From an uncultured Acidobacteriota bacterium (GTDB lineage: Bacteria > Acidobacteriota > Terriglobia > Terriglobales > Acidobacteriaceae): 64,000 bases of DNA. Location: contig CAILAC010000010.1 in assembly GCA_903832055.1 (NCBI GenBank), forward strand, positions 310,001 to 374,000, in the 5' to 3' direction. A program made the position numbers and the translations under genes. Each line of letters begins with the position of its first letter. Position 1 is the first letter of the stretch. The notes below the pieces were generated by a model. It was not told the origin of the DNA. It searched no databases and saw only the letters and a list, made by a program, of their open reading frames with translations. Below are positions 1,139 through 35,286 of the stretch, one piece after another.

Positions 1139-1210
1139 TAAGCCGGGGATTCATCCCCGGCAGTCACGAGGCGGCATTAGACGGGGATTTATCCCCTGCG
1201 GTATGCTGTT
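1139..1210. repeat. REP element, left copy flanking the RAYT gene
   Basis: Two consecutive hairpins: GCCGGGGattcatCCCCGGC and GGGGatttatCCCC, followed by TGCGGTATGC. A direct, diverged copy lies at 1755-1828 behind the transposase gene. The in-frame ATG at 1203 belongs to the conserved repeat core, so it is probably not the transposase start. Confidence 0.85.
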
Positions 1211-1220
1211 GCAATTCTTC

Positions 1221-1670
1221 ATGCAACCAAGCATTTTCACCTACGCCATAACTCTGCTTGCGCACCAGCGCAAACCTCTATTCGTGCGCAAAGCGAACGC
1301 CGAACTCTTTCTGCAAACCCTCTTCCACTACCAGACACAGTCCCGCTACCAACTACACGGCTTCGCCATCATGCCCGAACACATACACGTCCTCATAACA
1401 CCCATGGAAGGCCAAACCATCGAGCGTTGCATCCAATGCATCAAAGGCGGCTACTCCCACGCACTCCATATGCAGTTTCAAGGAGAAGTCTGGCACTCCG
1501 GCTATCACGAACACAGAATCCGCGACACCGCCGACTTCCAGAATCAACTCGCCTACATAGCCAACAACCCAACCCGACGCCACCTGCAAGACCACCCATA
1601 CGTCCACACAAACTTCCCAGAAAAACTCGCCCCCAAGCCTGGATATCTGCAAACCGATCAAAATCGCTAA
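1221..1670 (+). CDS. REP-associated tyrosine transposase (RAYT, Y1_Tnp family)
   Basis: A protein of 149 residues with the HUH metal-binding motif in GFAIMPEHIHVLI. The characteristic C-terminal part contains YIANNPTRR. These are hallmarks of the single-strand REP-associated transposases related to IS200/IS605 TnpA. RAYTs cut and mobilise or maintain REP hairpins. The gene lies between two direct REP copies (1139-1210 and 1755-1828), the expected context. I chose ATG 1221 because the upstream ATG (1203) lies inside the repeat and everything before that is repeat sequence. Length is normal for the family. No frameshift is visible, so it may be active. Confidence 0.88.
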   Translation: MQPSIFTYAITLLAHQRKPLFVRKANAELFLQTLFHYQTQSRYQLHGFAIMPEHIHVLITPMEGQTIERCIQCIKGGYSHALHMQFQGEVWHSGYHEHRIRDTADFQNQLAYIANNPTRRHLQDHPYVHTNFPEKLAPKPGYLQTDQNR

Positions 1671-1754
1671 CCAGAGCACAATCGAAGCGAGCCGAATATC
1701 AGAGCGCATCTCCCAGACCGCATCTCAAAAACGGAACGGATCTCTGAAACCGTA

Positions 1755-1828
1755 TAAGCCGGGGTTTCAATCCCGGCAATCACCAAGTCAGATATATACG
1801 AGGGATTTATCCCCTGCGGTACGCTCTT
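1755..1828. repeat. REP element, right copy flanking the RAYT gene
   Basis: The sequence starts TAAGCCGGGG and ends ATCCCCTGCGGTACGC. It matches the left copy (1139-1210) at both ends, with a variable middle. It has the same two-hairpin layout and direct orientation. Confidence 0.85.
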
Positions 1829-29178: not shown

Positions 29179-29262
29179 CTGGCCCTTGCCTATTTGGCTG
29201 TCATTCCCAAAGGGGATCTGCTTTGCATTTGCCCTTCACACTTCACACGCACACTTCACACT
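29179..29262. repeat. Composite repeat copy 3, in the sdhC-sdhA gap
   Basis: ATTCCC-aaa-GGGGAT (imperfect arms), then CCCTTCACACTTCACAC and similar units. The tract runs into the sdhC reading frame: its TCA/CAC triplets at 29256-29261 are the TGA stop and last GTG codon of sdhC on the minus strand. Confidence 0.85.
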
Positions 29263-35170: not shown

Positions 35171-35286
35171 TTGTCATCCTGAGCGCAGCGAAGGATCAGC
35201 TTCTGCCCTTGCCTTTTTGGTTGTCATTCCCCACGGGAATCTGCTTCTTCCCTTGCAGTTGTACTTCGCGCTTCACACTCACTCGT
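35171..35286. repeat. Composite repeat copy 6 with HPERSEG element, between TPR and TolC genes
   Basis: HPERSEG-type TTGTCATCCTGAGCGCAGCG (from 35171), then the perfect palindrome ATTCCC-cac-GGGAAT (35226-35240), then a TTCGCGCTTCACACTCACTC tract ending a few bases before the TPR stop codon (35291). It is the most complete example of the composite. Confidence 0.85.

Follow-up and report, generated by a model that had tools for sequence, protein, structure and literature searches.

A RAYT-type transposase gene between two direct copies of a two-hairpin repeat in an acidobacterial genome

The gene and its flanking repeats

In the window, by which we mean the whole 64,000-nucleotide stretch of DNA analysed here, an open frame on the + strand runs from 1080 to 1670 with in-frame ATGs at 1203 and 1221. 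The encoded protein matches Pfam Y1_Tnp (E 3.2e-10), reaches 93.9 bits with the NCBIfam model NF047646 (REP-associated tyrosine transposase, REP_Tyr_transpos; cutoff 80), by which it counts as a RAYT, and has one match in the PDB at E ≤ 0.001, TnpArep 4er8 (E 2.5e-7); with the IS200 model NF033573 it scores 23 bits, below the cutoff of 55. The start codon is most likely ATG 1221, judged from related genes. The features of the locus are as follows.

about 1138-1207, + strand: upstream REP, with foot GTAA (1138-1141) and hairpins at 1142-1161 and 1183-1196 separated by a spacer
1197-1207, + strand: end of the upstream REP, with box TGCGG (1197-1201) and tail TATGCT to 1207
1203-1205, + strand: in-frame ATG within the REP tail, out of frame in the related loci L031 and L032
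1221-1670, + strand: RAYT gene, 149 amino acids, stop codon 1668-1670 (open frame, Pfam, NCBIfam and PDB; start placed from kin)
1380-1388, + strand: HUH motif H54-I55-H56 (translation and alignment to 4er8)
1554-1556, + strand: catalytic tyrosine Tyr112, equivalent to 4er8 Tyr115 (counted on the 4er8 alignment)
about 1754-1825, + strand: downstream REP, with degenerate foot ATAA (1754-1757) and hairpins at 1758-1777 and 1802-1813
1815-1825, + strand: end of the downstream REP, with box TGCGG (1815-1819) and tail TACGCT (1820-1825)

In the alignment to 4er8, N116 corresponds to N119, and four of the five positions taken in the available part of PMC6006769 to read the guide tetranucleotide are kept (W94, E100, H101 and R104 in 4er8 numbering), the fifth, Q95, being replaced by His. 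The motif beside the RAYT tyrosine is given as NP(L/V)(R/K)xG in the accessible text of PMC2817692; beside Tyr112 it reads NPTRRH, in which N, P and R are kept, T stands for L/V and the G is absent, and related proteins also vary here. The genome itself (G000; 4.57 Mb in 18 contigs) contains four further RAYT-like genes with 28-41% identity to this one, all four frames scoring above the NF047646 cutoff. Among plasmid records the RAYT has one hit, from Chloroflexota at 25.9% identity, and the best named hit of the neighbouring GH3 protein is from Granulicella tundricola (57.2%), which would suit an acidobacterial host; a search of genome contigs gave a single distant hit, in a planctomycete record.

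Both flanking repeats lie on the + strand, so the pair is direct. The motif GGGATTTATCCCCTGCGGTA has two matches in the window against 0.00 expected from shuffles, and the two flanks align in direct order with a score of 47, where the best of 20 single-base shuffles reached 17. In the comparison applied to the whole family, they score 45 in direct and 10 in inverted order; the latter lies below the shuffle maximum of 14.5, and no inverted remnant was detected 3' of the gene. With a covariance model of the repeat, the full-length upstream copy scores 85.6 bits and the downstream copy 75.3 bits, each being among the copies on which the model was trained. DNA fold z-scores are moderate, at -1.91/-2.18 on the two strands for the upstream copy and -2.92/-2.66 for the downstream one. 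An earlier note, made from the letters of this DNA, had proposed a RAYT gene with a HUH motif at 1221-1670 lying between two direct two-hairpin REP copies, and the protein matches and the flank alignment bear out both proposals. Palindromic repeats that stand on either side of the gene and are dispersed in the genome are features of a REPtron; inverted order of those repeats is another, and here the double-palindromic repeats are direct.

Other repeats occur in the window. HPERSEG-type sites are found at 1095-1118, abutting the upstream REP, and at 35175-35198. A further two-hairpin repeat at 2820-2893 scores 41 bits with the focal model; its TACGGGCTTCAGCCCGT stems are like those found around a second RAYT gene of this genome (L003), whose REP it probably is. 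At 61-180, just 5' of an ABC-transporter gene, there is a tandem run of CACACTTCACACTC type, with similar pieces near 29216, 30333 and 31164.

The repeat family and its pairing with the enzyme

Copies of the focal REP are dispersed in the genome, as found both by BLAST and by a pattern scan allowing up to 3 mismatches. An alignment of eight copies (six from G000 and two from its congener G102), which formed the training set of the covariance model, supports two stems, with 90.3% of cells paired and covariation of 0.181 compared with 0.061 in shuffles, a value reached by none of 500. Three pairs are changed on both sides, a number reached in 74 of 500 shuffles and so not unusual. We ran the model on 15 genomes of the genus, scoring at most 150 candidates in each, so that all copy counts are lower bounds. 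At a cutoff of 55 bits, placed by eye where the G000 scores drop from 59.1 to 44.7 bits, there are at least 7 focal-type repeats in G000, 14 in G102, 20 in G151 and 6 in G206; among the candidates scored in the other 11 genomes none reached 55 bits, the best being 54.9 in G169 and 50.4 in G183. The repeats are therefore not unique to this locus; had they been, it would have told against the earlier note. The foot reads GTAG in the copies at C10:837189 and C16:99559 and in the upstream copy of G102. All five focal-type copies on contig C10 of G000 lie on the + strand, too few to claim a strand preference.

A RAYT with at least 50% identity to the focal protein is found only in G000 and G102 among the 15 genomes, so G151 and G206 (the latter assembly 88% complete) hold the focal-type repeat without an orthologue. 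The abundance of cognate REPs and RAYTs has been studied in PMC3686654, which describes REPs without their own RAYT as quite frequent in the strains studied and attributes most such cases to a RAYT gene that was lost or altered; G151 and G206 may likewise have lost theirs.

Agreement between the repeats of one locus is much closer than between loci. At the 36 loci where an upstream two-hairpin repeat is matched by an inverted one downstream, identity of the first hairpin within a locus is 0.861, against 0.601 in shuffled pairings (highest of 2000 shuffles, 0.688). The second hairpin is nearly uniform, and its 0.882 against 0.846 does not go beyond the shuffle maximum of 0.889. RAYT identity and first-hairpin identity are weakly correlated across 55 loci (Mantel r 0.276, reached by 0 of 999 shuffles). 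Because the detector requires near-perfect stems, their pairing is partly built in; this does not apply to the agreement within loci. In the 55 upstream repeats the hairpins are separated by 18-26 nt, within a permitted range of 12-30. The G102 orthologue, with 62% identity, has flanking repeats whose stems are of the focal type, in inverted order. Taken with the protein-family matches and the dispersed repeat family, the within-locus stem agreement substantiates the earlier view of a RAYT with its cognate REP pair. In this orthologue (L091, G102 C9:230826), the closest to the focal gene, the N-terminal part seems to lie in another frame, from a frame break or a sequencing error.

Whether the same enzyme also spreads the HPERSEG and composite repeats was a further question raised in the earlier note, and counts across the genus go against it. 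Sites like HPERSEG (up to 2 mismatches) number 27 in G000, 23 in G169, 34 in G151, 5 in G197, 25 in G183 and 41 in G206, and there are none in the other nine genomes, including G102 with the closest RAYT orthologue; G183, G151, G206 and G197 have HPERSEG and no RAYT match of at least 50% identity. The composite, which we took as the TTGTCATTCCC-NN-AGGGAATCTGC repeat, occurs in all 15 genomes and has 212 sites in G197, where no RAYT match was found at E 0.001. HPERSEG and the focal REP look separate, since G183 has a diverged HPERSEG copy at the same place with neither REP nor RAYT after it on the rest of its contig. Composite-type sites also number 131 in G044, 90 in G200 and 82 in G205, and these genomes, like G197, have no RAYT match.

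Repeat order and translation start across the family

A RAYT-like match is present in 171 of 200 genomes of the family. From these we compared upstream with downstream flanks (minimum score 22) at a first set of 114 loci, including five of the focal genome, of which 113 were used (L050 had a short flank), and at a second set of 40, which shares genomes and no rayt genes with the first, includes three loci from other families and was reduced to 39 by the short flank of L231. The first set has 67 loci with inverted order only, 19 with both orders, 8 with direct order only and 19 with neither; the corresponding numbers in the second are 17, 8, 6 and 8. Combined, 111 of 152 are inverted or both, 27 are neither and 14, the focal locus among them, are direct only. 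Some direct cases are not REP pairs (L005 and L044 look like other repeats); L001 (the focal locus), L036 and L092 were inspected by eye. The two-hairpin detector finds a downstream repeat on the same strand at 3 of 113 loci, and at L001 alone is it accompanied by an upstream repeat and by no inverted one.

In the tree, the focal gene falls into a clade of seven (SH-aLRT 97), three of whose members are direct only: L001, L036, which has internal stops, and L092, which is well formed. Repeat arrangement changes six times over the tree, many forks of which are unresolved because 144 columns serve 113 rows. Two other loci of the focal genome were seen in passing. L003 (C10:102993-103391, - strand) is a second RAYT gene, flanked by two inverted repeats; its frame reads through the downstream repeat, and GAGG of its upstream repeat lies 7 nt 5' of the ATG. 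L005 (C2:404085-404432, + strand) is a RAYT-like gene flanked by direct repeats that are long (CCGGGTGCCCCACCTTCAAAACAGCC...) and do not resemble two-hairpin REPs; three or more of these repeats lie upstream.

Upstream two-hairpin repeats are detected at 55 of 113 loci and in 1 of 565 shuffled flanks (an earlier, stricter version of the detector gave 47 upstream and 36 downstream repeats). The box that ends them reads TGAGG in 41 of 55, and an in-frame ATG, GTG or TTG follows it by 4-9 nt in 35 of 55; the other two frames together give 3 of 110, and downstream copies, with any frame counted, 6 of 49. This placement is confined almost wholly to repeats within 50 nt of the gene (34/46, against 1/9 for those farther away), recurs in 13 of 19 when one representative is kept per group (<60% identity), and by offset the count peaks at 3-8 nt (34/46) and is low elsewhere. 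The focal locus enters these 34 solely through a TTG, which we consider spurious, as we do the case of L030, counted in the 35 and not in the 34. Detector and 4-9 nt window were fixed while viewing the first set; with both unchanged, the second set has the box at the start in 7 of 10 near repeats and 7 of 13 of all, against 1 of 20 in other frames and 0 of 15 for downstream copies. The tree requires at least 11 changes of the trait, which thus neither is fixed nor arose in one event. TGAGG is also retained in downstream copies (33/49), so the box is a property of the repeat and is not conserved solely for translation.

The focal clade is an exception. In L001, L031, L032 and L033 the ATG follows the box by 13-19 nt, with TATGCT in between, and GGTATGCT/GGTACGCT is part of the repeat, its own ATG being out of frame with rayt in L031 and L032. 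The earlier note had observed that the first ATG of the frame belongs to the REP. It does lie in frame and inside the repeat, at 1203-1205; it is probably not the start codon, since it is out of frame in the two kin and the longer box-to-start spacing is shared by the focal gene and those closest to it. We also do not claim TATGCT as a -10 box with a leaderless transcript, as TACGCT stands in its place in other copies, and a promoter scan over 1000-1900 found none.

We put forward, tentatively and at a little under even confidence, that rayt in this family uses as its Shine-Dalgarno site the conserved box (usually TGAGG) at the end of the upstream REP, and that the focal clade has loosened this link. 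If so, dispersed copies that keep the box would carry a portable ribosome-binding box; were the enzyme also to bind this hairpin on its own transcript or gene, it could control its own synthesis. With a functional box at the start, conservation of the repeat would be coupled to enzyme expression. In the titles and abstracts listed on RAYT, REPIN, REPtron, TIRYT and TIRtron, we found no description of the pattern.

Matching sites, rival readings and known systems

Of the 14 other genomes of the genus, 13 carry relatives of the ABC-transporter gene 5' of the unit, at 68-92% identity. In G183, the closest by this gene, it is followed by a diverged HPERSEG copy, and REP and RAYT are absent 3' of that copy up to the contig end about 1.1 kb on; in G102 a homologue of window 2544 follows the ABC gene after about 88 bp. 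Neither offers a clean empty site of the kind that the earlier note proposed to look for in relatives, and among genus genomes the focal unit is at its place in G000 only, the orthologue lying elsewhere in G102. Presence and absence did emerge at two other places. No counterpart of the REP at C10:211617 was found where it would be expected in G183, G102, G169, G206 or G151 (all five searched), a comparison that rests on BLAST anchors and missing hairpins in diverged intervals, the MAFFT alignment being wrong over part of the gap. In G102 the orthologue and its inverted repeats occupy a 768-nt gap between rfbB and hemE, and the same gap, with no RAYT, measures 188 nt in G197, 84 nt in G201 and 93 nt in G203; hemE was identified in 14 of the 15 genomes, and in the available sequence rfbB lies next to it in these four. 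At corresponding sites, members of the genus thus differ in whether they have a REP copy or an entire REP-rayt-REP unit, with gain and loss indistinguishable.

The locus is very probably a variant of the REPtron, in which the gene for a RAYT-type HUH/Y1 transposase lies between copies of the two-hairpin repeat that the enzyme acts on. By analogy with the studied TnpAREP enzymes, the protein would bind the single-stranded hairpin through its GTA(A/G) foot, and Tyr112 would cut nearby DNA so that the repeat is moved. Direct repeat order sets the locus apart from the standard unit, and the absence of a short spacing between box and start sets it apart from most of the family. Against the REPtron-variant reading stand the few copies for a REP, the degenerate downstream foot, the NPTRRH motif, the lack of a clean empty site at the focal locus and the repeat-bearing G151 and G206 without an orthologue.

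There are three other readings. The direct order may be an accident, a possibility we take seriously while holding it somewhat doubtful: an inverted downstream repeat would have been lost and an independent REP copy inserted downstream in the same orientation. The inverted order at 111 of 152 loci and in the closest orthologue fits such a history, as does the coming and going of single repeats at other sites, but three of the seven clade members (the focal locus, the well-formed L092 and L036 with its internal stops) are direct only, and the inverted score of 10 3' of the focal gene leaves no detected remnant. It is rather unlikely that gene and repeats are a relic, the remains of a once active unit that no longer acts. 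Only seven copies (a lower bound), the degenerate downstream foot, TGCGG in place of TGAGG, the lost box-to-start spacing and the broken L036 would suit decay, yet the frame is intact, all catalytic residues are kept and both flanking repeats retain paired stems.

The ends of IS200/IS605 elements carry hairpins on one strand, in one orientation, and the direct hairpin repeats might on that model be the left and right ends of a unit that moves as a whole. Such movement would accord with the different places of the orthologue in G000 and G102, with occupation of the focal place in G000 only, and with the G102 unit being wholly present or absent in its gap. We regard this reading as very improbable, since the IS200 model falls short of its cutoff, each genome has a single copy, the repeats around the G102 gene, whose unit shows the presence and absence, are inverted, and the focal locus lacks clean borders.

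Read as a REPtron variant, the focal locus by itself is a mostly ordinary unit in an unusual orientation. The spread of REPs is unsettled, and PMC8266576, which places cutting at CT beside the hairpin, states that evidence for movement of the tnpAREP genes themselves is lacking. The question of gene mobility becomes testable here because a single genus offers a unit present or absent in the same gap and an orthologue elsewhere.

Several known systems resemble the focal unit in part. The E. coli TnpAREP/rayT (4er8; NC_000913 b0228) belongs to the same protein family, with W94, E100, H101, R104, Tyr115 and N119 kept in the focal protein; its gene has its own AAGGAG box and a REP-free leader of roughly 95 bp (by eye), unlike the box at the start in the family studied here. 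IS200/IS605 elements share Y1 HUH chemistry and hairpin ends in one orientation, whereas the focal protein fails the NCBIfam cutoff, its gene is single-copy and its repeats are dispersed without the gene. RAYT subclasses are set out in the consulted part of PMC6006769. REPtrons, in the portion of PMC2817692 (Nunvar et al. 2010) at hand, comprise a HUH and tyrosine protein with dispersed palindromic repeats on both sides whose stems change yet stay paired, as at the focal locus, and RAYTs are described there as always flanked by inverted REPs, with coevolution and preserved palindromes; those repeats are inverted and single-hairpin with a GT(A/G)G head, in contrast to the direct order, two hairpins, GTAA/ATAA foot and few copies found here. 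Within the cited RAYT, REP and TIRYT papers, as far as their available text extends, we found no description of direct order. Coevolution and two-hairpin flanks were already known from the accessible parts of PMC2817692 and PMC3733652. The latter (Di Nocera et al. 2013) describes acidobacterial TIRYTs and TIRtrons, transposases with terminal repeats of which some are double-palindromic and some overlap the 5' end of the gene. Like the focal unit, these have an acidobacterial RAYT-like tyrosine transposase gene between repeats, in some cases double-palindromic; theirs are terminal inverted repeats and the focal ones direct, the likeness being one of description.
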